From positions 52,422-89,837 of the forward strand of contig JADDQF010000069.1 in NCBI GenBank assembly GCA_016781505.1: a DNA stretch of 37,416 bases, read 5' to 3'. Source of the stretch: a bacterium. Lineage in GTDB: Bacteria; Chloroflexota; Chloroflexia; Chloroflexales; Kallotenuaceae. Of the stretch, positions 13,085-28,497 are shown in pieces. Position 1 is the first letter of the stretch. Each line of letters starts with the position of its first letter. The position numbers and the translations under genes are program-made. The notes under the pieces were generated by a model. It was not told the origin of the DNA. It worked only from the letters and a program-made list of their open reading frames with translations, and did not search any database.

Positions 13085-14008
13085 ATGCAGGTTCGCGGCT
13101 TGCTCGCGCTTTCGGCCTTAGCAGTAGCTCTCACACTGGCCGGATGCAGCCGCGCTGACCCTTCGATCATTGCGGACTCAACTGGCGGCCAGGATACGCC
13201 GGCGGGAGATGCCGGCCCGGCGACGGTTGACGTTGCGGCGGTCACCAATGGTTTACAGTTTCAACAGACAGCACTAACCGGGCCGGCTGATACGCCGATC
13301 GCGGTGAATTTCAACAATCCTGCGGCGTTGGAGCATAACTGGGTGCTCGTACAGCCAGGGCAGGAGCAAGCAGTTGCCGATGCCGCCAAGGGAACCGGCG
13401 GTAATCCGGCCGGATTGAATGGCGTGATCGCGGGTGGTGCTCCGATCGCGAATGGGAGCGAAACTGTTCAGGTTCCGCCGACCGCGGCCGGCCAATATCC
13501 CTACCTGTGCACCGTGCCCGGCCACTACGAGGCCGGGATGAAGGGCACCATGACATTGGGAGCGACGGCCGAAGGCGGGACGGGCGAGCCAGCAGATGCT
13601 GCACCCCAGACCGCAGTCGAGGAAGCAAGTGCCGCGGCGGCCGCCGAAGGTGATGCCGCCGGGTTAACGGCAGCGGCTGATCCGAGCGGCGCGCTCAAAT
13701 TCCAACAGACGACATTGCAAGCTCAAGCAGGCACCGGTTTCACCGTCAACTTTGCAAACTCTGCTCCGCTGCAGCACAACTGGGTACTGGTACAGCCTGA
13801 TCAAGCCGAGGCTGTAGCGACGGCAGCGCAGGCAAAGGGCGGCGATCCTTCCGGCATTCCGGGGGTAATCGCTGGCGGCAAACCAATTTCCAACAGCAGT
13901 GAGACGGTCGAGGTTCCGGCGCTTGAGCCAGGTACCTACCCATATATCTGCACCGTTCCCGGCCACTTTCAGGCGGGTATGGTAGGCGAGCTTACGGTTG
14001 CACCGTAG
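13085..14008 (+). CDS. Auracyanin-like blue copper lipoprotein with two cupredoxin domains
   Basis: The 307-residue lipoprotein (lipobox LAGC, Cys21) carries two type-1 copper domains in tandem. Domain 1 (about 55-158) has ligands His84 (EHNWVLV), Cys142, His147 and Met152 in LCTVPGHYEAGM. Domain 2 (about 197-307) has His231, Cys289, His294 and Met299 in ICTVPGHFQAGM. Both sites are complete. An Ala/Glu-rich linker joins them. The sequence around the C-terminal ligands closely matches auracyanins, the mobile or membrane-bound copper carriers that replace cytochromes between the quinol oxidoreductase and downstream acceptors in Chloroflexus and Roseiflexus. AAAGGAG precedes the ATG. A two-domain form could pass electrons between two copper sites. 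Two related genes follow on the same strand. Confidence 0.88.
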   Translation: MQVRGLLALSALAVALTLAGCSRADPSIIADSTGGQDTPAGDAGPATVDVAAVTNGLQFQQTALTGPADTPIAVNFNNPAALEHNWVLVQPGQEQAVADAAKGTGGNPAGLNGVIAGGAPIANGSETVQVPPTAAGQYPYLCTVPGHYEAGMKGTMTLGATAEGGTGEPADAAPQTAVEEASAAAAAEGDAAGLTAAADPSGALKFQQTTLQAQAGTGFTVNFANSAPLQHNWVLVQPDQAEAVATAAQAKGGDPSGIPGVIAGGKPISNSSETVEVPALEPGTYPYICTVPGHFQAGMVGELTVAP

Positions 14009-14063
14009 CTCAAACGTATGGCACGGATGTGCCCTTATACCACACTTTAGAGAGAATTAACGA

Positions 14064-14564
14064 ATGAACACGCACAAATTTTTTGGCGGTATTGCACTGG
14101 CGGCTGCGCTGGCACTCAGCGCATGTGGTGGCGGCGGCGGTAACGAAGGCGGTACGACCGGTGGAACAACCGGCGGAACAACCGGTGGTGCGGCAAGTGG
14201 TGCGGCAGCCGGTGGCGCTGCCATCACAGTGAACGCTGACCCGACGGGCCAGCTGAAGTTTGCTGAAACGACGCTGACCGGGGCCGCAAACCAGGCGCTT
14301 AGTGTCACCTTCAACAACCCGGCAGCCCTTGCGCACAACTGGGTGCTTGTCCAGCCAGGACAGGATCAAGCGGTCGCGGAGGCCGCTATGGCGAAGGGTG
14401 GAGATCCGACCGGCATATCCGGTGTGATTGCAGGCGGTAAGCCAATTACTAGTAGTAATGAAACGGTTCAGGTACCGGCGACGCCGGCCGGGACGTACCC
14501 CTACATCTGCACCGTTCCCGGCCACTATCAGGCGGGCATGAAGGGCACGATGACGATCCAGTAG
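14064..14564 (+). CDS. Auracyanin-like blue copper lipoprotein, single domain
   Basis: The 166-residue protein has lipobox LSAC (Cys21), then a Gly/Thr linker and one cupredoxin domain (about 55-166) with copper ligands His91, Cys149, His154 and Met159. It is strongly similar to the domains of the preceding gene, including the loop between the first His and the Cys (QAVAEAA, GGDP, GVIAGGKPI), which indicates recent duplication. The start has only a weak AGAGA upstream, so it may depend on read-through from the gene 55 bp upstream. It probably acts as an electron carrier on the outer face of the membrane. Confidence 0.88.
   Translation: MNTHKFFGGIALAAALALSACGGGGGNEGGTTGGTTGGTTGGAASGAAAGGAAITVNADPTGQLKFAETTLTGAANQALSVTFNNPAALAHNWVLVQPGQDQAVAEAAMAKGGDPTGISGVIAGGKPITSSNETVQVPATPAGTYPYICTVPGHYQAGMKGTMTIQ
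14148..14195 (+). repeat. 12-bp coding tandem repeat (Gly-Gly-Thr-Thr)
   Basis: Three units of GGYGGNACNACC (14148-14183) and a fourth degenerate unit (14184-14195) encode GGTT-GGTT-GGTT-GGAA, the flexible tether between the lipid anchor and the copper domain. Unit number could vary between strains and change tether length. Confidence 0.7.
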
Positions 14565-14592
14565 TCAACGTTTCAATCACGTAAAAATGGTG

Positions 14593-14617
14593 GCCCAACC
14601 CCTGCAAGGGGTTGGGC
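14593..14617 (+). terminator. Terminator-like hairpin after the second cupredoxin gene
   Basis: GCCCAACCCCT (14593-14603) pairs perfectly with AGGGGTTGGGC (14607-14617) over 11 bp around a 3-base loop and is followed by TGTTTGT. It separates the second cupredoxin gene from the third, which may therefore have its own promoter. Confidence 0.7.
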
Positions 14618-14668
14618 TGTTTGTATGTATAGGGTCGAACCACACGGATAGGACAAGGAGAAGGCAGA

Positions 14669-15322
14669 ATGCGACGGCGAGAAGTATGGAGCGTTGCTAG
14701 CTTAGTGGCAGTATTAGCCCTTGCTGCCTGCGGCAACAACGAGATCGACCAAAGCTTGAGTCGAACCGCCACGGCAGGGGAGGCGGTCGAGAACGCGCAG
14801 CAGCCAGGCGCGAACGAGCCGCTCGACAGCATCAACCAGCAGGGTGCCGCCACGGCGACGGCAACGGGCGAAGACGAGGGCACGACGGCGACGGCAACGG
14901 GCGGACAAGGGGGCGCGGCGGAACCGGCAGGGACAACGGTGACCGGTGCAAATGGAGATCCAACCGGAAATGTTCTGACGCTTTCGATCACCAACAGTCC
15001 GAGCGAGCCGTTGTACAGCCAGGGCGTGATGCAGGCACCGATCGGCTCGCCGATTGTGGTGCAGTATAACAACCCGTCCGATCAGCCGCACAACTGGGTG
15101 CTGGTGCAGCCAGGGCAGGAGCAGGCTGTGGCGGACGCAGCGGAGGCCAAGAATGGCGATCCGTCCAACATCGAGGGCGTGATCGCCTGGAGTGAGACCA
15201 TCACCGGCTCCACAACCAATATCGAGGTACCGCCCCTGCCCGAGACTGGCGGCTATCCCTACATCTGCACGGTGCCCGGCCACTACGAAGCCGGCCACAA
15301 AGGTGCGCTCAACGTACGGTAA
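14669..15322 (+). CDS. Auracyanin-like lipoprotein with His in place of the axial Met
   Basis: The 217-residue lipoprotein (lipobox LAAC, Cys21) has a long Thr/Ala/Glu/Gly-rich linker (about 30-95) with two near-identical TATATG segments, then one cupredoxin domain (about 98-217). Ligands His141 (PHNWVLV), Cys200 and His205 are present, but the position occupied by axial Met in the three sibling domains is His210 (CTVPGHYEAGH, codon CAC at 15296-15298). The domain also has a longer first part (ITNSPSEPLYSQGVMQAP) than its relatives. It probably binds copper, but its spectrum and potential should differ from true auracyanins. AAGGAGAAGG precedes the start. Confidence 0.85.
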   Translation: MRRREVWSVASLVAVLALAACGNNEIDQSLSRTATAGEAVENAQQPGANEPLDSINQQGAATATATGEDEGTTATATGGQGGAAEPAGTTVTGANGDPTGNVLTLSITNSPSEPLYSQGVMQAPIGSPIVVQYNNPSDQPHNWVLVQPGQEQAVADAAEAKNGDPSNIEGVIAWSETITGSTTNIEVPPLPETGGYPYICTVPGHYEAGHKGALNVR

Positions 15323-16077: not shown

Positions 16078-18327
16078 TTAGGCGGATGGTGTGCCCTGGG
16101 CTTGGGCCGGCAATGATTGCAACAGCAGCTCGGCCACATCTTTACGCGCCAAGGTGTCGCCAACGCCTGTGTTCTTGGCTGCGTCTTCAAACATCACCAT
16201 GCAGAACGGACAGCTCATCGCCAGTGTTGTCGGCTCGGCCTTTTGAATTTGCTCAAGCCGAATCACATTGATCCCTTTTTTGCCCCAGCCTTCCATCCAC
16301 ACGTTTCCGCCACCCGCGCCGCAGCACATCGCTTTTTCCCGATTGCGCTCCGGCACTTCGACCAGATCAACCCCCGGGATGGCAGCCAGCAGATTGCGGG
16401 GATCGTCGTACACGTCATTGTAACGACCAATGTAACACGGGTCGTGGTAGGCTACCCGCTCGTCGATGCGCTCGGTGGGCTGCAGCTTGCCGTCCTTGAC
16501 CAGACCAGCCAGAAACTGCGTGTGGTGTACAACCTCGTAGTCTTTGCCGGCGCCGCCGCCGAACTGCGGGTACTCATTTTTGATTGTGTTGAAGCAGTGG
16601 GCACAGGTCGTCACAACTTGCTTGAATTTGTACTGGCCCATCGTCTCGACGTTCGCCTGCGCCTGGGTCTGGTACAAAAATTCTTCGCCCATGCGCCGGG
16701 CCGGATCGCCGGTGCAGGTTTCTTCCTCGCCCAAGATGGCAAAGTTGACACCCGCCCGCTGCATCAGCTGCACCATTGCTCTGGCGGTGTTGCGGGAGCG
16801 TGCATCGTAGCTGGGCGCGCAGCCAACCCAGTAGAGCACGTCCACCTCTTCGACCTCGGCCAGGGTGGACACGTCAAGTCCATCCGCCCAGGCCGACCGC
16901 TCGCGCTGCGGCAGCTTCCACGGATTGCCATTCCGCTCGATGCCCGTCAACACGTTTTGCACGCCGTCCGGCACATCGCCTTCAACCAGCGCCAGCTTGC
17001 GCCGGATATTGACGATGTCGTCCACATGCTCGATCATCGCCGGACACTCCGTCATGCACGCGCGGCACGTCGTGCAGCTCCACAGCTCGTTCTCGGAGAT
17101 GAAATTACCGTAAAGTGGGATCGTCTCGGGATTGCCCTTCACAAACTTGACATCGCCACCTTTGAAGCGGTTGAGCCCGTGTAGCTCGCCGTTGCTGCCT
17201 TCATGCACGGGCTCAGCTGGCGCGCGATCAGCCGCGGCCAGCTTGCTTTCATCCTCGGTCAGATGGACCAGCGTGCCGTCTTTCATCAGCACGGGCGCAC
17301 CGCGCATCAGGTCGTCCAGCTTGGTGATCAGCCACTTCGGCGACAGATCCGAGCCCGAAGCATAGGCCGGGCAGTTCGCCTGGCAGCGACCACAGCGCAT
17401 GCACGCGTCCAGGCTCAGGCGCTGCTTCCAGGTAAGGTCGGCAATGCGGTTGATGCCCAGCTCTTCCTCTTCCTTGTCTTCAATATCCTCGATCTTGGGT
17501 AATGCGCCTTTGGCATCGGTGTCGCGGAAAAAGCTGTTCAGCGGCGTGTAAAAGATGTGCTTGAATTTGGTGTAGGGGATCGACGCCACAAACGCGAAGG
17601 TGACGATCATGTGCGGCACCCACAGCAATCGATGCACGATCAGCCCGGCCTCGCCCTCCAGGCCAAGCACCCGATACACATTGGCCAGGCCGTAGCCAAC
17701 CCAGGCATACTGCGCCCAGCTCTGGGTAAACACGCGCACGCCGCCGATCTCCTGATTCAGCAGCCGAATCCCTTCGATCAGATAGCCGCCGATCCCGATA
17801 AACAGCATCGCGCCGAGCACCCACCAGTCGGTGTTGCGATTGTCGAGCCGGTCAGGCTTGGTGACATAGCGCCGGTAGGTGGCCCAGACCAACCCGGCCA
17901 CGAACAGCAAGCCCAGCGTATCAAGGATAAACTCGTAGAAAGGGTAGAACGTGCCCGTCAAAATTTTGCCGGCGTCGGGGCCAAGCGTTGGGATGGTGAA
18001 GTCTTCTTCCAGCGCAATAATGTCGGTTCCGATAAACAGCGTCAAAAAGCCATAAAAGATCAGCGTGTGCATGATGCCGGGCGCGCGGTCGCGCAGCACC
18101 CGCTTCTGGCCAAAGATCTGCTGCAAAAACTCGCTCAGACGCGCCGCCAGATGTGTATCACGCCGGGCAGGACGGCCGCGCCGCCAGCGCCGCACGTCGC
18201 GCCAGATACCATAGGAGAGCGTGCCGATCGAGGCAACCGCCAACACGTACATCAACGTTTGGATATACGGAATATGACCCTGAATATTCCAGTAGATTTC
18301 GCGAACAGGGACAATCGTGTCGTTCAT
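16078..18327 (-). CDS. HdrDE-like fusion: membrane cytochrome b domain plus Fe-S heterodisulfide-reductase-type domain
   Basis: The 749-residue protein fuses an N-terminal membrane part with about six helices (20-260), resembling NarI/DsrM/HdrE cytochrome b subunits (His87, His232 and His239 are candidate haem ligands), to a cytoplasmic HdrD/GlcF-type part. Two 4Fe-4S motifs are present (Cys309, 312, 315, 319 and Cys418, 421, 424, 428). They are followed by two CCG domains: Cys503/Cys538/CxxC575-578, where the usual Cys pair is Cys-Thr, and Cys631/CC668-669/CxxC706-709. Such proteins transfer electrons between the quinone pool and a thiol/disulfide or other cytoplasmic donor. The 100-residue spacer between the Fe-S motifs is long. 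A promoter of its own lies upstream, so it need not depend on the ccm operon. Confidence 0.85.
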   Translation of the reverse strand: MNDTIVPVREIYWNIQGHIPYIQTLMYVLAVASIGTLSYGIWRDVRRWRRGRPARRDTHLAARLSEFLQQIFGQKRVLRDRAPGIMHTLIFYGFLTLFIGTDIIALEEDFTIPTLGPDAGKILTGTFYPFYEFILDTLGLLFVAGLVWATYRRYVTKPDRLDNRNTDWWVLGAMLFIGIGGYLIEGIRLLNQEIGGVRVFTQSWAQYAWVGYGLANVYRVLGLEGEAGLIVHRLLWVPHMIVTFAFVASIPYTKFKHIFYTPLNSFFRDTDAKGALPKIEDIEDKEEEELGINRIADLTWKQRLSLDACMRCGRCQANCPAYASGSDLSPKWLITKLDDLMRGAPVLMKDGTLVHLTEDESKLAAADRAPAEPVHEGSNGELHGLNRFKGGDVKFVKGNPETIPLYGNFISENELWSCTTCRACMTECPAMIEHVDDIVNIRRKLALVEGDVPDGVQNVLTGIERNGNPWKLPQRERSAWADGLDVSTLAEVEEVDVLYWVGCAPSYDARSRNTARAMVQLMQRAGVNFAILGEEETCTGDPARRMGEEFLYQTQAQANVETMGQYKFKQVVTTCAHCFNTIKNEYPQFGGGAGKDYEVVHHTQFLAGLVKDGKLQPTERIDERVAYHDPCYIGRYNDVYDDPRNLLAAIPGVDLVEVPERNREKAMCCGAGGGNVWMEGWGKKGINVIRLEQIQKAEPTTLAMSCPFCMVMFEDAAKNTGVGDTLARKDVAELLLQSLPAQAQGTPSA

Positions 18328-18487: not shown

Positions 18488-19168
18488 TCAGGGCGCCAAG
18501 CGATAGCCTACGCCCCACTCGGTCATCACAATATTGGGATCGTGCGGATTTTGCTCAAGCTTGCGGCGTAGATGCCAGATATACACTTTGAGGTAGGCGG
18601 TGTCGTTGATATACTCGTCGCCCCATACGCGCTGCAGCAACGTATGATGATCCATGACCTGGCCTGGATGCTGAGCCATCAGCAGCAGCAGCTGATACTC
18701 GGTCGGCGTCAGGTCTACTTGCTCGTTGCGCACCCGCACCACACGCATCTTGGTATCGATCTCGACCTGTCCGTCGCCTACGCTGATCGGCTGATCGGTC
18801 GACGGCACGCGCCGCAGCAGGGCCCGCACGCGGGCCAGCAGCTCGTCGGGCTTGAAGGGCTTGGTCAGGTAATCGTCCGCGCCACTATCAAGCCCACTCA
18901 CAATATCGGTGCTTTCGGTACGTCCCGTCAGCATCAGCACGGGCACGTTGGAGAGCCGGCGCAGCTCCCGTACCACCTCAAAGCCTTCCATATCCGGCAG
19001 CATAACGTCCAGAATAATCAGATCCGGCGCGGCGTTTGCAGCCTGGCTGAGCCCATCCTTACCCGTCGGCGCCGCAAAGACCTGATAATCCTGCGTCTGG
19101 AGAACGAGTGTTACCGTCTCGCGAAGCTGCGGGTCATCATCAACGATCAGAACACGTCGTTCGGCCAT
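18488..19168 (-). CDS. OmpR/PhoB-family response regulator, last gene of the ccm operon
   Basis: The 226-residue protein has a receiver domain (about 5-115) with acidic pocket Asp11/Asp12, phospho-acceptor Asp54 (LIILDVMLPDMEGF), Thr81 and Lys103 (TKPF). A winged-helix DNA-binding domain follows (about 130-224) with LTPTEYQLL, QVMDHHTLLQRVWG and the DNA-recognition helix YLKVYIWHLRRKLE, as in OmpR/KdpE. TAGGAGTGG precedes the ATG, and the start lies only 9 bp after the stop of the J-ResA gene, so it is co-transcribed with the cytochrome c maturation genes. No histidine kinase gene is adjacent. Autoregulation of the ccm operon or of respiratory genes is a reasonable guess. Confidence 0.92.
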   Translation of the reverse strand: MAERRVLIVDDDPQLRETVTLVLQTQDYQVFAAPTGKDGLSQAANAAPDLIILDVMLPDMEGFEVVRELRRLSNVPVLMLTGRTESTDIVSGLDSGADDYLTKPFKPDELLARVRALLRRVPSTDQPISVGDGQVEIDTKMRVVRVRNEQVDLTPTEYQLLLLMAQHPGQVMDHHTLLQRVWGDEYINDTAYLKVYIWHLRRKLEQNPHDPNIVMTEWGVGYRLAP

Positions 19169-19177
19169 GCACCACTC

Positions 19178-19969
19178 CTATTCGTTGCGCGCTTGATCCG
19201 TACCGGTCTGCAAATGCCGAAACGTTTGTTCAACGTCCGCTGCAGTAAGTTCACCCACCCGAATATAGCGCACCTTGCCTTGCTGGTCAACAAAAAAGGA
19301 GGTCGGCAGCGGCGAAATACCGTAGGCTTGCGTGGCTATCCCGCTATCGTCAAGCACAATCGGATACTCGACGCCGTACTGATTGGCAAACTGGCGCACA
19401 TGCTCGATGTTGCGATTAAAGGTGCGCTCGCTGTTGAGCAGGTTAACGCCCAGCACCACCAGTCCGTCGGCCCCTAGTTTGGCGTACGACCGTTGCAGGG
19501 CGGGCGTTTCCTGCTTGCATGGCTCGCACCAGGTGCCCCAGAAGTTAAGCAACACAACCTTGCCCTGGTAATCGCTGAGCGAAACAGTTTGGCCCTCAAG
19601 ATTTTGGAGCGTGAAGTTGGGAGCGGCGTAGGGCTTGACCTCGGTCAGGGCAGCGGTTGCTTCAGGCTGACCGCCGCTGAGCAGCCACACAGCGCTCAAC
19701 ACCAGCAAGCCCAACACCACCCCCATGATCCCGTACACTACCTCGCGCGTGCTAATACCCCGCTTCTCGGCCCGAGCTGCGACGCCATGGCTGGCATCAT
19801 ACGCCCTTCGCTTGTCAGGATGCGACAACACCTCGGCAGCTCGCTTAAGCTCGGCCACGTCGCCCAGCTCGTCCGCTGCCTCAGCGCGCCGACGCTCATA
19901 CGCGGCCAGCACCTCATCGGTGGTTGCTGTCGGAGACACCCGCAGCAGCGTGTAGTAATTTTGTGTCAT
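19178..19969 (-). CDS. J-like domain / TM / TlpA-ResA thioredoxin fusion (CcmG-like)
   Basis: This 263-residue protein has three parts. Residues 4-62 align with a DnaJ J domain (NYYTLLRVSPTATTDEVLAAY ... LSHPDKRRAYD; in pieces: YYTLLRVSPTAT and DEVLAAYERR), but the HPD loop after helix II is absent. A TM helix spans 77-97. Residues 115-255 form an extracytoplasmic TlpA/ResA/CcmG thioredoxin domain with active site WCEPC (Cys148, Cys151), the preceding FWGTW and a cis-Pro loop (SPLPTSFF, Pro222). CcmG/ResA keeps apocytochrome c cysteines reduced for haem attachment. The ATG at 19969 is chosen because the upstream stop reads TGAcATG, implying translational coupling; an upstream extension to 20062 would lie inside the previous gene. 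The J-like domain is not part of known CcmG or ResA proteins. Confidence 0.85.
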   Translation of the reverse strand: MTQNYYTLLRVSPTATTDEVLAAYERRRAEAADELGDVAELKRAAEVLSHPDKRRAYDASHGVAARAEKRGISTREVVYGIMGVVLGLLVLSAVWLLSGGQPEATAALTEVKPYAAPNFTLQNLEGQTVSLSDYQGKVVLLNFWGTWCEPCKQETPALQRSYAKLGADGLVVLGVNLLNSERTFNRNIEHVRQFANQYGVEYPIVLDDSGIATQAYGISPLPTSFFVDQQGKVRYIRVGELTAADVEQTFRHLQTGTDQARNE

Positions 19970-19970
19970 G

Positions 19971-20966
19971 TCAGGATTGTCCATAGCTTTGTAGTAAACG
20001 TTCAGCGGTTTGCGCTTCGGGCGATTGGGGCGCAATCTCGCGTACTTTACGCCATAGCGCAAAAGCTTCTTCGCGGCGCGGCGGCTGCACCTGCGCCAAG
20101 ATCAGGCCATAGCTGATCAACGCCCGTGGCTCAGCAACCTCCCCGGTGATACCGCGCTCAACCTCAGCCAGCGCCTCCGCCACACGTTGCGGATCCGGAG
20201 CATCTTGACCATAGTTGAACAATGCGAGCGCGCGGTCGGCGCGCACCGTGGCGTTATCCTGGATCGCCAACGCACGCCCGTACGCCTCCGCCGCATCGAG
20301 CCAGCCGCCCAACAATCCCCAGTATTGCGGTGATTGTGGCGCTTGTTCGCGCAGGGTTTGCAGATTATCAAACACGGCGTTGCCGAACTCGATCCACGCC
20401 TGAGCCGTATTACTTGCCGTGGCCTGCGTCCGATACAGGTTAAGTTGCGCCTCGGTGTACGGCAGCGTAACACCGCTGATGGTCGGCGTCGCCAAGGCCG
20501 CCGGGCCGCTTGTTGTGCGCACGCCGCTCAGAAGCAGCAAGAGCAAAACGGCCAGCAGCGCCGACCCAAGCGCCAGCCCCGGCAGCCAGCCACGCACTCC
20601 AGATCTTTGAGCCGTTCGCGCTGGCCGCGGCCGTTCCGCCACGCTTGGAACGGTGTTGCGCTCTTGGCCGTGGGCAGGCGGCAGTGGCCTGTAGTCGAGC
20701 GTCTCCCCCTCGGCCACGCCTTGCGCAAAACCTTGCCGGCGGTCATAGGCCTCACGCCGAGCGGCATCCGTCAGCACCGCATAGGCCTGCTCCAGCTGCT
20801 GCCGTTTTTGGGTTGCCAGCGCTTGCAGATCCGGCGCGGCCTCCGCCGTCCGCTCGGCACTATACAGCTCCCGCAGTCGCTCGTAGGCCGTCGCAATCTC
20901 GTCGCGCGAGGCCCGCGGAGTTACCTGCAGGATCGCGTAGTGGTCTGGGTCTTCCCGAAGTTTCAT
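19971..20966 (-). CDS. J-like domain / TM / TPR protein (CcmI-like position)
   Basis: The 331-residue protein has an N-terminal J-like domain (8-78: DHYAILQVTPRASRDEIATAY and AYAVLTDAARREAYDRR), in which the HPD tripeptide is replaced by SAE (YSAERT, 36-38). A charged linker (79-126), a TM helix (127-148) and an extracytoplasmic helical TPR-type domain (175-331) follow. In the classical cytochrome c maturation system a TM-anchored TPR protein (CcmI, or the C-terminal part of CcmH) presents apocytochrome to the CcmF haem lyase; the position directly after ccmF fits that role. Its ATG abuts the ccmF stop (TAGATG) with no intervening base, so translation is coupled. The function assignment is from architecture and context only. 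Confidence 0.78.
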   Translation of the reverse strand: MKLREDPDHYAILQVTPRASRDEIATAYERLRELYSAERTAEAAPDLQALATQKRQQLEQAYAVLTDAARREAYDRRQGFAQGVAEGETLDYRPLPPAHGQERNTVPSVAERPRPARTAQRSGVRGWLPGLALGSALLAVLLLLLLSGVRTTSGPAALATPTISGVTLPYTEAQLNLYRTQATASNTAQAWIEFGNAVFDNLQTLREQAPQSPQYWGLLGGWLDAAEAYGRALAIQDNATVRADRALALFNYGQDAPDPQRVAEALAEVERGITGEVAEPRALISYGLILAQVQPPRREEAFALWRKVREIAPQSPEAQTAERLLQSYGQS

Positions 20967-23321
20967 CTAACGATACGTACCGCGCCAGCCGAGTGCGCCT
21001 GTGCCGAGCGCACCGCCTCCACTGCGTACGACCTCAGGCGCAGGTGCCTGGACCCAACGCCGGCGCACCACAGCCAGTGCTCCGCCAAACGCCATCAGCA
21101 GTGCGCCCAGCCACACCAGCGCAATTGCCGGCTTGGTGCTGACCGTAAAGACGGCGCGTGCGGGCACCGGCGGCAGATTGAGGCCATCGACGCGCAGCTT
21201 CGCCATCTGCGCTCCGGGATTGATGTTTTCCAGCACCAGTGACTTGCCGTCGGGCAGGGCAACCGGAACCTCGGTAAAGACTTTGTCCGCTTCCAACCGC
21301 AGCTGCGGCGTGAGCACCTGGACCTCGTTTTCGTAGGTCACGGTCACGGTAGCCTGCACGATCGCATACTTATCGGTCGCCAGATGATCCTGCACATCGA
21401 ATTTGTCGAAGCGCATGCTGTACGGCCCGATCTCTTGCTGCACGCCCGGCACGACCTCGGCCGAGTTCAGGTCGACCGCGGGCAGATATTGCTCAGGCGA
21501 GATGTACAGATCCTGCCACAGGTAGCGCTTGATCGCCGGAGTGCGCACATCGGCGCCCATGCGCGCATTGAAGTACACATCCGGGGCGGCGATGAACGGT
21601 TCCCCGCCATCTCGTGCAACTTCTAGGCGCAGCACATGCTTGCCATTCGGCTTTTCGTCGTAGCCCCAGAAGCTAAAGCAGTGCTCAAAGATACATTGTG
21701 TCTCGCCCTGGGGAATGACCACTTTTTCCTCGGGCGAGGCGTACACATACGAGCCGACTACTCCCACCAACAGCAGCGCCATGCCGACATGCGCCAGATA
21801 GCCGCCGATCCGCAGCCAGCCGGAACGCAGCGTACGCACGATCATCAGCAGGTTCGTGCCGAGCGCAAATGTCGCAACCGCCACAAACGCAACCGACAAG
21901 CCGTGGCGTACTCCCAAGAAGATACCAACGCTGGTCAGCACAACTGCCGCCGCGAACGGCCAGCGCACTGCCAGCAGCAGCTTACGGCCATCGGTGTTGC
22001 GCCAGCCCAGTAGCGGGCCAATCGCCATCAGCATGGCCAGCACCAGCGCAAGCGGACTTGTGGTGCTCTTGAAAAAATCCGGCATCAGCGAGAAGCGACC
22101 GTCCGTGAAGGGCTGTCCGCCAAACTGGGTGCCGTTGTCGATGTTGAACGCCCGACCAAAAAACTGCTCCAGGTTATAGCTCAGCCCCTTGATCGACGTG
22201 ATCCACGGCATCGACGTGCCAAACGCAATCACCAGCCCGACGATCACAAACGTCAGCATCAGCAGCACAAACACCGTATCCCGCGACAGCAGCGCCTCGG
22301 ATAACGGCTTGCGCGGCACATCCCGCCAGCGCAGCAGCAACAAGCCCGATCCAAACACCACCAGCGTGAGCATCGCGCCCAGCATGACAGCTTTGAGGCC
22401 TTCCTCCACGAACGAATGCACCGAGAATTGAGATAGCACGCCGGAGCGTGTCAAGAACGAGGCGTAAAAGACCAGGCCGTAGGTCAGGATCGCTAAAAAG
22501 AAGTTGGCCCGACGTAAGCCGCCATGTGTCCGCTGTACCAGCAAGCCATGCATCAGCGCGGCACCGGTGAGCCAGGGCACCAGCGACGAGTTTTCAACCG
22601 GGTCCCAGCCCCAGTAGCCGCCCCAACCCAGTGACTCATACGCCCAGTAGCCCCCCATGGTCAGCGCGAGACCCAAAATTGTCCAGCCGGCCACGGTCCA
22701 AGGCAGTGCCAGCTGCGCCCAGCCGTCGTAGTCGCGCCGCCATAAGCCGGCCAGCGCCATGCAAAACGGGATGCCCAACAACCCGTAGCCGATAAACAAC
22801 GTCGGCGGGTGAATCACCATCCACACGTTGTGCAGCTGCGGATTGAGGCCACGGCCATCCTGGGGTGGATACGGCATGCCCACGACCGGCTCGGTCGGCA
22901 GGAACGGATTACGGATCAGCATAAAGACGATCAGCATCGCCTGCACCATCATCAGCAGCGCCAGAACGTAGGGCTCGTAGTGGCGGGTGCGCCGCATCAG
23001 AAAGGGCGCGATGATTAATCCGGCTAGCGCCCAAACCACCAGGCTGCCGGGCTGACCGGCCCACACTGCCGCGATGCGGTAGCGCAGCTCAAGTTCCCGT
23101 GAGCTGTAATCGTAGACATAGCGGATGTCGTAGCGCTGCAGCACAAACAGCGCCAAAATCAGCAGCGCGGAGGCACCGGCCAGCAGCAGAGCGCCATAGG
23201 CGCCGACTCGCCCCCACCGCAGCAGCTGCGAGCGTCCGCTGACCACCAGCGTATAACATGCCGACGAAAAAACCGCGGCCAGAATCGCACCAAAGATCAG
23301 ACTTGTGCCAATGTAATACAT
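20967..23321 (-). CDS. ccmF: Cytochrome c haem lyase CcmF
   Basis: The 784-residue polytopic protein is the haem handling and ligation subunit of system I cytochrome c maturation. It shows the CcmF hallmarks: HNVWMVIHPPTLFIGY (His164, His171), the WWD haem-binding region GWGGYWGWDPVENSSLVPW (232-250), and more than a dozen TM helices. A large extracytoplasmic domain precedes the last helix. That domain carries a Cys pair (Cys543, Cys548; TQCIFEHC) that I do not recognise from the family. It is longer than the typical 630-680 residues of proteobacterial CcmF, with the excess mainly in the C-terminal extracytoplasmic part. The gene follows ccmE after 45 bp and abuts the J-TPR gene. Confidence 0.95.
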   Translation of the reverse strand: MYYIGTSLIFGAILAAVFSSACYTLVVSGRSQLLRWGRVGAYGALLLAGASALLILALFVLQRYDIRYVYDYSSRELELRYRIAAVWAGQPGSLVVWALAGLIIAPFLMRRTRHYEPYVLALLMMVQAMLIVFMLIRNPFLPTEPVVGMPYPPQDGRGLNPQLHNVWMVIHPPTLFIGYGLLGIPFCMALAGLWRRDYDGWAQLALPWTVAGWTILGLALTMGGYWAYESLGWGGYWGWDPVENSSLVPWLTGAALMHGLLVQRTHGGLRRANFFLAILTYGLVFYASFLTRSGVLSQFSVHSFVEEGLKAVMLGAMLTLVVFGSGLLLLRWRDVPRKPLSEALLSRDTVFVLLMLTFVIVGLVIAFGTSMPWITSIKGLSYNLEQFFGRAFNIDNGTQFGGQPFTDGRFSLMPDFFKSTTSPLALVLAMLMAIGPLLGWRNTDGRKLLLAVRWPFAAAVVLTSVGIFLGVRHGLSVAFVAVATFALGTNLLMIVRTLRSGWLRIGGYLAHVGMALLLVGVVGSYVYASPEEKVVIPQGETQCIFEHCFSFWGYDEKPNGKHVLRLEVARDGGEPFIAAPDVYFNARMGADVRTPAIKRYLWQDLYISPEQYLPAVDLNSAEVVPGVQQEIGPYSMRFDKFDVQDHLATDKYAIVQATVTVTYENEVQVLTPQLRLEADKVFTEVPVALPDGKSLVLENINPGAQMAKLRVDGLNLPPVPARAVFTVSTKPAIALVWLGALLMAFGGALAVVRRRWVQAPAPEVVRSGGGALGTGALGWRGTYR

Positions 23322-23366: not shown

Positions 23367-23798
23367 CTAGCCGTTGGAGGCCTGCTCCTGATACTTGGAT
23401 GGACACTTCACCAGCAGCTGATCGGCTTCAAACACACCCTTATCTGGGTTGAAGCGTCCGGTTGCCGCCACACTGATCGCATCGTCAAAATTTCCGGGCT
23501 TGGTGGCGTGCACCACCTTGATGGTTGCACCGGTACTGTCCTGAATATCAAAGGTCCAGTTGAGCTTGTCGTCGTACGCGCCCTTGCTGTACAGGTAGCC
23601 GAAGACCTGCACGGTGCCGCCCGCCTGCTTGGCCTCAGTGATCGTGACCGCACGTGCCAGCGAGCCGCGCAACGACCAGCCGCCAAAGCCCAGCGCAAGC
23701 GCCACAATACCCAGCATCATCCACTGGACCGGCTTCAAGCCCCATGTACGGCGGGAAGCTCCAGGACTGAGGCTATGCTCACCGGCGATTGAGGCCAT
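23367..23798 (-). CDS. ccmE: Haem chaperone CcmE, CxxxY type
   Basis: CcmE receives haem at the outer face of the membrane and hands it to CcmF. The 143-residue protein has a TM helix (about 25-45) and an OB-fold beta barrel (about 50-132: VQVFGYLY, KLNWTFDIQD, ATGRFNPDKGVFEADQLLVKC). The covalent haem ligand motif is Cys-Pro-Ser-Lys-Tyr (Cys132, Tyr136) instead of the His-x-x-x-Tyr of Escherichia coli, so it belongs to the CxxxY class known from archaea, Desulfovibrio and some other bacteria. The start at 23798 overlaps the upstream ccmD-like gene by 20 bases. Confidence 0.93.
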   Translation of the reverse strand: MASIAGEHSLSPGASRRTWGLKPVQWMMLGIVALALGFGGWSLRGSLARAVTITEAKQAGGTVQVFGYLYSKGAYDDKLNWTFDIQDSTGATIKVVHATKPGNFDDAISVAATGRFNPDKGVFEADQLLVKCPSKYQEQASNG

Positions 23799-24027
23799 CG
23801 CTGAGCTCCTTCTCGATGCGCTGCGGCCTTAGCGGCTCGCGTTCAATGACCGAAGGCGTTTGGGCCGCATCGCGAGCAGGGATCTGCTCGGCATCCAGCG
23901 CTCGCTGCAGCTCACGCACGCTCCGGTCCATCCGCCATAAATACCCAAAAAATCCGATCATCACGACCAGCGCAACGGCTGCTGCGACATACATCGCGAT
24001 GGCGGGATTGTTGATAATGCCGAGCAT
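23779..24027 (-). CDS. ccmD: Small membrane protein, CcmD-like
   Basis: This 82-residue protein has one TM helix (about 8-30), then a basic and charged helical tail (MDRSVRELQRALDAEQI). CcmD in other bacteria is a short single-helix protein that stabilises the CcmABC complex and aids release of haem-loaded CcmE. The call rests on size, topology and position between ccmC and ccmE. Its ATG overlaps the ccmC stop by one base (TAATG) and its end overlaps ccmE, which indicates coupled translation. Confidence 0.75.
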   Translation of the reverse strand: MLGIINNPAIAMYVAAAVALVVMIGFFGYLWRMDRSVRELQRALDAEQIPARDAAQTPSVIEREPLRPQRIEKELSDGLNRR

Positions 24028-25019
24028 TACGCAAGCCCCCGTGCCTCCACACGCCGCTGCAATCCAAGCAGCGTCGTGCGCAGATTGTAAACCCAGAAAA
24101 ACAGCCCGGTGAAGCCGATCAGCGACGCGAACAACGTCGTTCGCGTTGCAACATTGCCGCGCTGGCTAGTGTTGCCGGGCGCTTGAATGTTGAGCTGCAC
24201 ACCGGTTTCGTCTACACCCTGCAACGCCAGCATAAACCGGCTATCGGGAAAGTTCGGCGTGTCCACTTGCCGCTGTGTAGCTCTATTATACGTCGGGCGC
24301 AGCGTCGTGCGATTGGAAAATCCCACACCGGATACATCAACTACGGCCGTTACCAAATCGCCGTTGCGCTCGACGTTAAGGAGCTGCAGCCGCTGATCGC
24401 CAAGCTGCCCAACGCCGTTGTTGGCCAGCGTGATGCCGTTGCACCGTGACCCGGGCAAAAACGCGCAGTTCGGATGCAGCGTGTTCTCATACATGCGCGG
24501 CACTACGTACGTGAGCAGCGGTGCGCTCACAAAGGCAAACAGCGCATACACCGCGGCTAGCTGGCGGCGGCGGTCCGGATCGTCGATGGCCGACCGCAGC
24601 GCGAAGTAGGCGCCGTAGATCAGCAGCAGGATCAGGATCGAGGTTTCACGCGGCTCCCAGTTCCACCACGAGCCCCACACCACCTTGGCAAACATCGAGC
24701 CCGTTACGGTGGCCAAAACGGAGAACAAGAAACCGAGCTCGGTTGCAACCAGAGCACGGTCGTCGTCCCGGGCTTGCCGTCGGCGTAGATACACGATGCT
24801 GTACCAGGCGGCAATCGCAAAGGCAAAGGTGGAAAGCCACGCCGTTGGCACATGCATCATAACAATGCGGCCGGTGTTGCCCAGACCTTCATAGGGTGGC
24901 ACCCACAAAAACATCGCGAGCACAACGCCGAGCATCCAGAAGGTCAGCCCCACCTTCGCTACGCGCGGCACCCAGCTCAGTGGTGATCGAGACTGTGCAG
25001 TTACCATGTTATCAACCAT
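24027..25019 (-). CDS. ccmC: Haem exporter/handling protein CcmC with extended extracytoplasmic loop
   Basis: CcmC binds haem and loads it onto CcmE with CcmAB. The 330-residue protein has six TM helices, haem ligand candidates His56 (MMHVPTAW) and His182 (NTLHPN), and the WWD-type motif VVWGSWWNWEPRETS (about 114-126). It is about 85 residues longer than E. coli CcmC. The excess is an extracytoplasmic beta-rich loop (about 185-290) between the last two helices that begins directly after His182 with a Cys pair (Cys185, Cys193). Start: ATG at 25019 or the second Met (25007); neither has a clear ribosome site. Confidence 0.92.
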   Translation of the reverse strand: MVDNMVTAQSRSPLSWVPRVAKVGLTFWMLGVVLAMFLWVPPYEGLGNTGRIVMMHVPTAWLSTFAFAIAAWYSIVYLRRRQARDDDRALVATELGFLFSVLATVTGSMFAKVVWGSWWNWEPRETSILILLLIYGAYFALRSAIDDPDRRRQLAAVYALFAFVSAPLLTYVVPRMYENTLHPNCAFLPGSRCNGITLANNGVGQLGDQRLQLLNVERNGDLVTAVVDVSGVGFSNRTTLRPTYNRATQRQVDTPNFPDSRFMLALQGVDETGVQLNIQAPGNTSQRGNVATRTTLFASLIGFTGLFFWVYNLRTTLLGLQRRVEARGLA

Positions 25020-25088
25020 CTACACCAACATACATAGACAACGTCAAGGCTTTGCTGCGGGTTCCCGGTTCGCGTGCTGCTGCGCTCC

Positions 25089-25829
25089 TTAGGCATCCCA
25101 CACATAGGGAAACAAAAACAGGGCTGCGGCAGTCATCGCTACGGCATACGCCCCCAACCCTTGCAGCTGCGGCAAGGCGGCGCGCCAAGGAGCGCCCGTT
25201 AGCGCCTGCTCGGTCGCCAGCATCGCAATCACCAGCTGCGGAAAAACCACCGGAAAGGCGAGGGCTGCAAAGAGCGCCGAGCGAGCCGATGCCTTGGCAA
25301 TCACCGCCGCCAGCAGCGTGACCGTCGCCGCCAGACCGAAACCGCCCAAAAGCAAGCACAACCCCAGCATCAGCACGTTCGCAATGCGCATGTTCAGAAA
25401 CAAACCGAGCAACGCCGTCACCACCACGCTCAGCAGCATAAGCAGGATCACGTTGAGCAGCCACTTGCCGACAAATACCGCCGCCGGCGGTGCGTTGAGC
25501 CGCAAGAACGTCGCGGTTTGAACCTCTTCCTCATGCACAAATGCGCGGCCCAGCCCGGTCAGCGCGGCGAAAAAGAGCGCAACCCACAGCAGCGTTGCTT
25601 GAATTGCCGGTGTAATCGACTCACGCGGCGCGAGGCGCGGTCCCAGATAAAAGCTGACAACCAACACAATCGTGAGCGCAAACATCGCCAAGGCATTGAG
25701 CGCATACCGCGTCCGCAGCTCGCTCCGCACATCTTTCCGCAGCACCGCCCAGATAGCCCGCCCCATGTGCGGAGTGCGGAACCTACTCGGTTCTACGTAT
25801 GCTGGGCGCCGTTCGATCTGCTTAGCCAA
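25089..25829 (-). CDS. ccmB: Haem exporter permease CcmB
   Basis: The 246-residue protein has six hydrophobic segments and the family's features: RKDVRSELRTRYALNAL at the cytoplasmic start, then FVHEEEVQTATFLRLNAPP after the second helix. With CcmA it forms the ABC module that drives haem-CcmE release. The proposed TTG start (25829) has GAGGT 9 bases upstream and lies 2 bp after the ccmA stop; the first ATG is at 25766 (MGRAIWAVLRKD), closer to the usual family start, and remains possible. A 69-bp gap separates it from ccmC. Confidence 0.88.
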   Translation of the reverse strand: MAKQIERRPAYVEPSRFRTPHMGRAIWAVLRKDVRSELRTRYALNALAMFALTIVLVVSFYLGPRLAPRESITPAIQATLLWVALFFAALTGLGRAFVHEEEVQTATFLRLNAPPAAVFVGKWLLNVILLMLLSVVVTALLGLFLNMRIANVLMLGLCLLLGGFGLAATVTLLAAVIAKASARSALFAALAFPVVFPQLVIAMLATEQALTGAPWRAALPQLQGLGAYAVAMTAAALFLFPYVWDA

Positions 25830-25831
25830 AG

Positions 25832-26464
25832 CTAAACCTCGCCCAACGGCAGCACAAAATCACCAAACGCTCGGTCACGCGGATCGTTGGTGGCAATCAC
25901 CGTAATGCCGCACGCGCGCTGCTCAGCCACGACTCGCTCCACCATTGCAACCCCGGTCGCATCCAGATTGGTGGTAGGCTCGTCCAACAGCAGCACGGGA
26001 GGTTGATGCAGCAATGCCAGGGCATACCGCAAGCGCTGAACCATCCCGGATGAAAAGCGCGCCACGTATTCGTCGGCCCGTTGTTCAAGCCCGACACGAG
26101 CAAGGGCTTGCCGCTGACTTGCCGCATCGCAGCGTATGCCGCGAACATCCGCGACGAATGCCATGTGTTCCTGCGCCGTCAGCTCCCGATACAGTTGAAT
26201 ATCCGGACCAATCATCCCGATCAACGGCTGTGCCTCCGCCGGCTCCCATTCACACCCAGCGGCTACATAGCGGATCGTACCGCTACTTGGCCGCTGTAAC
26301 CCGGCCAGCAGCCGCAGCAAGGTTGATTTGCCAACACCGTTATGGCCGGTAACGAGCAGGACATCGCCCGTGGTCAGCTCGGCGACAATGTTGTGCAGCA
26401 CCTGCCGCGCGCCGTACAGCTTACTCACATGGTCGATCACAAGGCGAACTTCAGCCGCTTTCAC
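25832..26464 (-). CDS. ccmA: Haem exporter ATPase CcmA, first gene of the ccm operon
   Basis: The 210-residue ATPase has Walker A GHNGVGKST (40-48), signature FSSGMVQR (137-144), and Walker B LLLDEPTTNLD (158-168). The H-loop histidine is replaced by Asn193 (IATNDPRD). The GTG at 26464 is taken as start because the family begins a few residues before VIDHVSKLYG and an extended -10 (TGCTAAAAT) lies 8 bases upstream, which leaves no room for transcription of the longer frame that would start at 26521. It energises haem release to CcmE with CcmBC. No Shine-Dalgarno sequence is visible beyond AAGAG, consistent with a leaderless mRNA. Confidence 0.88.
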   Translation of the reverse strand: MKAAEVRLVIDHVSKLYGARQVLHNIVAELTTGDVLLVTGHNGVGKSTLLRLLAGLQRPSSGTIRYVAAGCEWEPAEAQPLIGMIGPDIQLYRELTAQEHMAFVADVRGIRCDAASQRQALARVGLEQRADEYVARFSSGMVQRLRYALALLHQPPVLLLDEPTTNLDATGVAMVERVVAEQRACGITVIATNDPRDRAFGDFVLPLGEV

Positions 26465-26471
26465 TGCTCTT

Positions 26472-26480
26472 ATTTTAGCA
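26472..26480 (-). promoter_or_regulatory. Extended -10 promoter of the ccm operon
   Basis: On the minus strand TGCTAAAAT is an extended -10 (TGn plus hexamer TAAAAT). No recognisable -35 lies 16-18 bp upstream. Seven bases separate the hexamer from the GTG, so transcription would start at or near the first codon of ccmA. Confidence 0.45.
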
Positions 26481-26650
26481 CAACGCACTTGCATCCGCTT
26501 AGGTTGCTGACTGTAGATCACGGCCCGGCACTGGTATCGGTTAGGAGATGGAGGAATGGATCAGTACGGCTGCATAGACACCGTTGGAAGGGCTTAGCCT
26601 TTTGTTCATCCGCCTAAAGCTTAGGACTTAAGCAGGACTCATGAAAACCA

Positions 26651-26749: not shown

Positions 26750-27631
26750 CTAGGCGGCGGGATCGATGGAAGGGGTGGGGTGGTCGAGGGTATGCGCACG
26801 ATGGCCATCTGCGGCGGTTGCCACCTCCGGCATGATTTCGCCGCGGGGAGCACGTAGATACTCCATCAGCTGCGCATGAAAGATTTCGGGCTGGTCGGCC
26901 CAAGGGAAGTGCCGCGAGCCCTGCACGCTGAGCTGCCGCAGGAACGGCGCCGTCGGTTGGGCCCGCCGAATGACCTCGATCTGACTCGGCATCACGATGT
27001 CATCGCGCGTGCCATGGATCACCAGCGTCGGCACGGCTAGGCGCGGCAGATCGGGTCGGAGATCCGTCCGCATCATCGAGCGCACCGCCGCCCGCACGCT
27101 GTCGGCGGTCGGCTTGACGCTGTCTTCCAGGATCTCAAGCATGTCCTGCTCGTCGGCTTCCCGGAGAAAGTAGTGAAACAACCGCTGCGTGAGCCAGGGC
27201 AGCGCATTCATCCCCCGCGCGATTGGGCGGAACGCGGTCATTTTCAAGAGCGGCGCCAGCGACGAGCCAACAATCGGCGCGCCCACCGTCACCACCCGCT
27301 CGATCCGGTCCGGATGCTGGATCGCTGTTTTGAGGGACACCATACCGCCCATGGAATGGCCGACCAACGTAATCCGGCCAATACCAAGCGCATCCAAAAA
27401 GCGAATAACTTGATCGGCATAGGCGCCGATCGAGGGCTCAATCGCGCGCTGGTAGGTGTCGCCGAAGCCGATCAGATCAAAGGCGTAGGTTCGAAAGTGG
27501 GACGAGGCCACTTCCATCGAGGGCAGCCAGTAGCGCCATGAACCAAGCCAGCCATGCAGAAACAGAACCGGCCGGCCTTTGCCAAAAACCTCGTAATGGA
27601 CCGCCTGCTCGTCGATATACACAACGCTCAT
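26750..27631 (-). CDS. Alpha/beta hydrolase
   Basis: The 293-residue protein has the alpha/beta hydrolase fold with oxyanion region LFLHGWLGS (24-32), nucleophile Ser93 in GHSMGG, acid Asp210 or Asp211 (HGTRDD) and His241 (GSRHFPWADQPE). The lid (about 120-175) contains two aromatic-rich helices. It most resembles haloperoxidase- and esterase-like members of the family; the substrate is unknown. The C-terminal 25 residues are a low-complexity tail. AAAAAGGAATCTC precedes the ATG. The upstream membrane coiled-coil gene ends 76 bp before it on the same strand. Confidence 0.88.
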   Translation of the reverse strand: MSVVYIDEQAVHYEVFGKGRPVLFLHGWLGSWRYWLPSMEVASSHFRTYAFDLIGFGDTYQRAIEPSIGAYADQVIRFLDALGIGRITLVGHSMGGMVSLKTAIQHPDRIERVVTVGAPIVGSSLAPLLKMTAFRPIARGMNALPWLTQRLFHYFLREADEQDMLEILEDSVKPTADSVRAAVRSMMRTDLRPDLPRLAVPTLVIHGTRDDIVMPSQIEVIRRAQPTAPFLRQLSVQGSRHFPWADQPEIFHAQLMEYLRAPRGEIMPEVATAADGHRAHTLDHPTPSIDPAA

Positions 27632-27707: not shown

Positions 27708-28394
27708 CTACGCGGCACGATGATCCATTTTCAGGCTACCGCCCACCTGCGCCCGCAACGACGCCAAGTTGGTTTCCCGCTCAATCACCGACCGGCGCAA
27801 CTTCCACTGCAGGCTGGCGATCTCATCCGCAATGCCGCGCAGGCTTTGCATCTCCACTTCCAGCGCTTCCACAATCCGATCAGCTGCAACGGCCGGTTGT
27901 GCTTGCTGCGCGGCAACTGCTTGATTCAACACGGCAATCCGATCCTGCATGGTTGCCAGCAGCCCCATCAAATTACCCCAGCTTTCGCTGTCAACGAGCC
28001 GCTGTTTCTGCTGCGAGCGCACGCCCGTTTCAAACCATTCGCCCAGCTGCCCCTGCAATGTTTCAATCCGATTCTGCAGCTGCGGTAGCCCAGTGGCTTC
28101 GGCAATCTGTTCGGGCGTAATGGTGATGTTTGCTGTATGCTCCGCAGTGGCCAGCTGACCAATTTGATCGTGCATGTACGAGATTGAGCTGCCGATCTGC
28201 GCCTGACGCAACGTGACTGCTTCCTGTTCGCTGAGCACGTCGAGCAACATTTCCCGTAACCGCGCTGCTTCTTCTGTTGCACGCCCTTCCTGCCGATTCA
28301 AGATGCGCGGCATCATCAGGATCAGCCCGAGCAACAACAACACATTCAGCACCACTGCTGCGCCAATAAGGAAACCGATGTACGATGATTGCAT
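27708..28394 (-). CDS. Membrane-anchored coiled-coil protein of unknown function
   Basis: The 228-residue product begins with a TM helix (about 5-28, IGFLIGAAVVLNVLLLLGLIL) and continues as a long, mostly helical region with heptad-like spacing and no enzyme motifs (for example LQNRIETLQGQLGEWF and VEALEVEMQSLRGIADEI). The ATG at 28394 is chosen because GGGAGG lies upstream and the TM helix starts directly after it; an earlier Met at 28469 has neither. I do not recognise the family. It is divergent from the response regulator gene and has a strong promoter of its own. Confidence 0.65.
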   Translation of the reverse strand: MQSSYIGFLIGAAVVLNVLLLLGLILMMPRILNRQEGRATEEAARLREMLLDVLSEQEAVTLRQAQIGSSISYMHDQIGQLATAEHTANITITPEQIAEATGLPQLQNRIETLQGQLGEWFETGVRSQQKQRLVDSESWGNLMGLLATMQDRIAVLNQAVAAQQAQPAVAADRIVEALEVEMQSLRGIADEIASLQWKLRRSVIERETNLASLRAQVGGSLKMDHRAA

Positions 28395-28467
28395 GAAAAA
28401 GTGCCTCCCGCGATGCGGTGTGTGTCGAAGCTGCAACAGCGCAGCACTGAGATCTCTCAATTGCCGC

Positions 28468-28497
28468 ATTATAAAAACCGGGAGAACCCTGGGTCAA
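28468..28497 (-). promoter_or_regulatory. Strong promoter of the coiled-coil membrane protein gene
   Basis: On the minus strand TTGACC (28497-28492), an 18-bp spacer and a perfect TATAAT (28473-28468) stand about 75 bases before the start codon. This is among the best sigma-70 matches in the window. Confidence 0.65.

Follow-up and report, generated by a model that had tools for sequence, protein, structure and literature searches.

HPD-less J-like domains on CcmI-like and CcmG/ResA-like proteins of a Chloroflexales cytochrome c maturation operon, and their possible role as docking modules

In the window, the whole stretch of 37,416 nucleotides analysed here, a cytochrome c maturation (ccm) operon ends in two proteins that join a J-like domain to outer domains resembling those of CcmI and CcmG, which raises the question of what J-like domains are doing in cytochrome c maturation. 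Two adjacent genes follow ccmF (features of the operon are all on the minus strand). The first, P1 (19971..20966, 331 aa), is CcmI-like, with a J-like domain, one transmembrane (TM) helix and a TPR outer domain, and the second, P2 (19178..19969, 263 aa), is CcmG/ResA-like and has the same plan except that its outer domain is a thioredoxin domain. A preliminary description had proposed that the two genes are coupled to ccmF, and both junctions are found in the sequence: TAGATG holds the stop of ccmF and the start of P1, and TGAcATG the stop of P1 and the start of P2. P2 might instead start at an in-frame ATG that lies 15 bases upstream, or at a TTG beyond it.

The shared plan of J-like domain, TM helix and outer domain is confirmed for both proteins by Pfam, AlphaFold2 and recurrence in relatives, which agree. 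The Pfam search proposed in the preliminary description matches DnaJ (PF00226) above the cut-off of 27.8 bits in both, at residues 8-75 of P1 (38.3 bits) and residues 4-58 of P2 (29.6 bits). From the Pfam matches and the AlphaFold2 models, and in P1 also the comparison of HPD sites below, the J-like domains are placed at residues 8-78 of P1 (20733..20945) and residues 4-60 of P2 (19790..19960). Rather than lacking a J-type helical hairpin, both are predicted by AlphaFold2, with high confidence, to have the four-helix J fold with the helices in order (9-13, 21-34, 45-66, and 68-78 in P1; 5-9, 17-30, 35-49, and 51-60 in P2), and pLDDT is >94 across most of the P1 J domain. When the genome itself was searched for J domains, P1 and P2 passed, together with three other J proteins. 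In the J-profile sequence search DnaJ ranks first and Pam16 is not among the best 60 rows; fold searches of the PDB hardly probed the J part, as the outer domains of P1 and P2 filled the lists. A chance or misread J domain is ruled out by Pfam, AlphaFold2, and conservation. The genus of the window has a P2 J-like domain shortened by about 13-17 residues between helices II and III, which is among the most degenerate forms.

A single TM helix is found in all 33 P1 homologues and all 31 P2 homologues; in the window it spans residues 128-146 of P1 (20529..20585) and residues 74-97 of P2 (19679..19750), as located by AlphaFold2 and a hydrophobic window. Lysine and arginine together are more numerous before the helix than after it in 28 out of 33 P1 and 29 out of 31 P2 homologues, and these positive-inside counts place the J-like domains of both proteins in the cytoplasm.

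Beyond the membrane, P1 has helical repeats at residues 172-329 (19980..20453) by AlphaFold2, assigned to a TPR domain of the CcmI/CycH type. The TPR_CcmH_CycH model (PF23914) matches 20 of the 33 P1 homologues (best 9e-8) and general TPR models match up to 22 of them, although the window's own TPR region is below the Pfam threshold. A structure search with the outer fold of P1 returned only general TPR-like and 14-3-3 matches (Z about 14), which are not diagnostic; CcmI and NrfG are absent among the matches listed. In P2, residues 109-255 (19205..19645) form a thioredoxin-like domain after the TM helix, with ResA (1st9) as the best structural match (Z 23.3, rmsd 1.4, 137 residues aligned, 38% identity). 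The redox motif WCEPC is at residues 147-151 (19517..19531), and both cysteines of the CXXC are invariant across the 31 P2 homologues. The outer domains had been described as TPR/CcmI-like and as TlpA/ResA-type with WCEPC, CcmG-like, and these assignments stand, based on PF23914 in the P1 homologues and ResA 1st9 for P2.

CcmI (CycH) of System I and NrfG resemble P1 in having a membrane anchor and an outer TPR domain and in being encoded next to ccmF. It had been stated that CcmI of known systems has only TM and outer domains; these parts are present, but the statement is not quite right, since in R. capsulatus and P. aeruginosa CcmI crosses the membrane twice and its two TM helices are linked on the cytoplasmic side by a short stretch, with a leucine zipper in R. 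capsulatus (PMC3884852). P1 differs from it in having one TM helix and a folded J-like domain, and by analogy the J-like domains sit where R. capsulatus CcmI has its leucine zipper stretch. Likewise, ResA and CcmG (DsbE) share with P2 the TM anchor, the thioredoxin fold, WCEPC with the following Glu, and a place in a ccm operon, whereas P2 adds a cytoplasmic J-like domain and scores under the NCBIfam cut-offs for ResA (133.8 vs 170) and DsbE (72 vs 123.15). The parts of P1 and P2 are of known kinds; their combination was not found in the literature searched (open-licence papers only), where J domains on Ccm proteins are nowhere described.

Upstream of P1 the genes are in the order ccmA, B, C, D, E, F. 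By Pfam, ccmD, ccmC, ccmB and ccmA occupy 23779..26521, with ccmA at 25832..26521 and a weak match for CcmD (22.2 bits vs 23.5). CcmE (23367..23798; PF03100) is of the cysteine type, with CPSKY as its heme site, and ccmF, for heme ligation (20967..23321; PF01578, PF16327), is immediately upstream of P1. The CPSKY sequence is present in CcmE of all 22 operons from the order, and CcmH (PF03918) was detected in none of 41 genomes (controls match in 4). Together these indicate System I*, the form with a CXXXY CcmE that is found in Desulfovibrio and archaea and has been reported in some Chloroflexi (PMC3601427). The system of Desulfovibrio works without CcmG and CcmH, whereas the present operon does include CcmG-like and CcmI-like genes, whose products carry J-like domains. 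A DsbD/CcdA-type transporter is encoded in the genome and could supply electrons to P2.

Other features were observed around the operon and in related loci. An OmpR-type response regulator gene (18488..19168) comes after P2, and almost all loci read from the order have it there. Also adjoining the ccm operon is the gene of a large Fe-S membrane protein that contains CCG and ferredoxin-type domains (16078-18327); among the loci read, only those of the window's own family have this gene in that position. Three adjacent cupredoxin genes (plastocyanin/azurin family; 13085-15322) lie near ccm, the first of them two-domain, giving four domains in total. Upstream of ccmA, several genomes of the order retain a protein with an N-terminal TM helix and no Pfam match (27708-28469) together with the neighbouring gene for an alpha/beta hydrolase (26750-27631). 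In genome G005 there is a second, stand-alone ccmF (L096:8237-10603, plus strand), 63% identical to the window's, with no other ccm genes found within the 16 kb read. Elsewhere in the phylum, an 846 aa protein fuses CcmF to a thioredoxin domain (L099:6589-9129, minus strand), a fusion that speaks for CcmF and the CcmG/ResA domain working directly together.

At the catalytic loop between helices II and III, HPD is present in none of the 48 P1 and P2 domains compared (28 and 20, respectively) and in all of 32 other J domains, which include E. coli DnaJ, the two DnaJ proteins of the genome itself, and J proteins with a TM helix from the phylum. The catalytic loop of the window's P1 is YSAER, vs YHPDR; at the HPD site, the P1 domains have DPA, APE, SAE and similar letters and the P2 domains APE, NPE, DPA and similar. 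The sole HPD letters in P2 are residues 50-52, at the start of helix IV and off the catalytic site. The mean net charge of helix II is -0.71 in P1 and -0.40 in P2, compared with +1.97 in the other J domains.

These results go against the suggestion in the preliminary description of a DnaK- or Sec-linked chaperone module, in which the J domains would function as co-chaperones and bring DnaK, or a link to Sec, to apocytochromes before or during export. A real J fold with a Pfam match above cut-off and its cytoplasmic side by the positive-inside rule would suit such a role, but the HPD is missing throughout and helix II is net negative, while HPD is retained in the J proteins used for comparison, several of which also have a TM helix. 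Recruitment of DnaK is rejected on the HPD and helix II tests, and nothing in the analysis points to Sec. A co-chaperone role is very unlikely. With its HPD residues lost, the domain is probably a docking piece and not a DnaK recruiter. DjlA-type proteins and the HPD-bearing J proteins with a TM helix in Chloroflexota are like P1 and P2 in joining a J fold of the same family to a TM helix; however, they retain HPD and are not beside ccm genes in the loci read. One such protein, of 498 aa, is encoded in the window's own genome (L053:10242-11738, plus strand), and across the order there are J-domain ORFs of comparable length.

Loss of the HPD has not been accompanied by loss of constraint. Between close pairs, most dN/dS values of the P1 and P2 J domains are 0.03-0.29. 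They are comparable to those of the outer domains or slightly higher, and in general lower than that of the linker; such low values indicate that both J domains are constrained. If the domains were instead vestigial or neutral remains of a gene fusion, the shortening in the window's genus and the several losses from P2 would be expected; it is the dN/dS, far under 1 in both J domains, and the keeping of the P1 J-like domain in all four families of the order that disfavour this and make it highly improbable.

The families in question are those of one order, across which the architecture recurs. Searches with P1 covered a sample of 60 genomes from the order and found the J-like domain, TM helix and TPR region in 50, one of them with an incomplete J domain; the remainder are six genomes of one genus with the TPR region and no J domain, one fragment, and three with none. 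The P1 search of genome contigs returned one close relative only. Full loci from all four families have the gene order ccm, ccmF, P1, P2, response regulator. The preliminary description had asked whether relatives in the Chloroflexota have the same architecture beside ccmF; far from being absent near ccm genes, it recurs in all four families, and recurrence on this scale is not chance. Among 251 genomes sampled across the phylum, the listed matches from outside the order have the J or the TPR part alone, never the whole architecture. Of 20 further ccmF neighbourhoods, one is the second ccmF of a genome in the order and 19 are from outside it (two on short contigs); no J domain was found in these 19, where the CcmG-like proteins consist of TM helix and thioredoxin only.

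In a tree of J domains built without the HPD columns, the P1 and P2 domains are on one side and all HPD domains on the other (SH-aLRT 96), which indicates that the two J-like domains share common ancestry within the order. Tests do not reject either the P1 or the P2 domains as a single group, and the inner forks of the tree are unsure because the J alignment is short. On a CcmF and CcmC tree of 23 genomes, the state of the P2 J-like domain changes four times and that of P1 once. The P2 domain has been lost at least four times with the P1 domain retained, and none of the 23 genomes has it without the P1 domain. Family f2 includes one genus with both J domains, one with the P1 domain and a decayed P2 domain, and one (g4) in which both were lost and the operon kept; some operons of this kind can therefore do without the module. 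The P2 J-like domain is missing from genus g7, where dN/dS of the P1 domain is still 0.10-0.15, so the P1 domain has work to do without that of P2. An obligatory heterodimer of the two is disfavoured by this continued constraint after repeated loss of the P2 partner, and there must be a further role or partner for the P1 domain.

Between the J-like domain and the TM helix of P1, at residues 91-98 (20673..20696), an alignment of homologues identifies the cytoplasmic motif DYRPLPPA. The pattern D-[YF]-x-P-L is present in every aligned P1 homologue (consensus DYRPLPPA), with D, P and L invariant in 33, and the motif is kept in P1 homologues that lost the J domain; it is the most invariant inner-side stretch of P1. 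The 4.18 Mb genome has a single match to the pattern DYRPLPP. The motif probably serves for binding at the inner face. This has a bearing on whether the J-like domain could be a structural N-terminal cap that helps P1 and P2 to insert into the membrane, take up their topology or stay stable, without any partner, as might be thought from its repeated loss from P2 with the gene kept. CcmG-like proteins at ccm loci outside the order manage without a J domain, the domain is clearly constrained, and the conserved DYRPLPPA beside it suggests binding; a cap is thus unlikely.

A precedent for dimerising J-like domains without HPD comes from Pam16. Pam16/Tim16, CJD1 and CPP1 are like P1 and P2 in having an HPD-less J-like domain on a membrane-anchored protein, and Pam16 shows that such domains can serve as dimerising regulators (PMC3806816). 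The P1 and P2 domains might be regulators of this type, which would bind DnaK or a J protein that has HPD but not activate it, and would thereby keep the chaperone away from the complex or position it there. Pam16, membrane-bound and HPD-less, does pair with an HPD partner (PMC3806816), and the 498 aa protein described above is an HPD-bearing J protein with a TM helix in the same genome. There is, however, no HPD partner beside the operon in the loci read, and whereas Pam18, the partner of Pam16, keeps its HPD, neither P1 nor P2 does; Pam16 and its like also belong to other compartments and pathways. Regulation of this kind is regarded as improbable here.

From the computed features (architecture, predicted fold, operon location, HPD loss, constraint, and common J ancestry) we infer a docking role and putative partners. 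It is moderately probable that the J-like domains are non-catalytic cytoplasmic docking modules that organise the assembly of CcmF, CcmI and CcmG in System I*. This is argued by a J fold that has lost its HPD and reversed the charge of helix II yet is constrained, in an operon-wide gene order that is kept, by the absence from the 23 genomes of a P2 J-like domain without that of P1, and by Pam16 as a dimerising precedent without HPD. In such a machine P1 and P2 would be the CcmI-like and CcmG/ResA-like subunits. By homology, P1 would use its outer TPR domain to present apocytochrome c to CcmF, and P2 its outer ResA-like domain to keep the CXXCH thiols reduced, while the J-like domains on the inner face would hold P1 and P2 to each other and probably to CcmF or the CcmABCD side, possibly through a contact between J domains as in Pam16-Pam18. 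Against docking, Pam16 works on an HPD-bearing partner and both J domains here are without HPD; the P2 domain has been lost several times with that of P1 still constrained; and one genus without either keeps the operon. A bolder form, in which paired J-like domains, duplicated within the order from one ancestor, are an inner-face scaffold joining P1, P2 and CcmF and compensating for the missing CcmH, and so the first J-fold assembly module in cytochrome c maturation, is possible but doubtful.

These proteins provide a clear bacterial case of a J fold under selection after loss of the residues for DnaK function. They bear on how System I* works without CcmH and on how CcmI, CcmG and CcmF are held together. 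A cytoplasmic domain on the chaperone and reductant subunits, naturally lost in some genera, gives a ready comparison and a handle on assembly.
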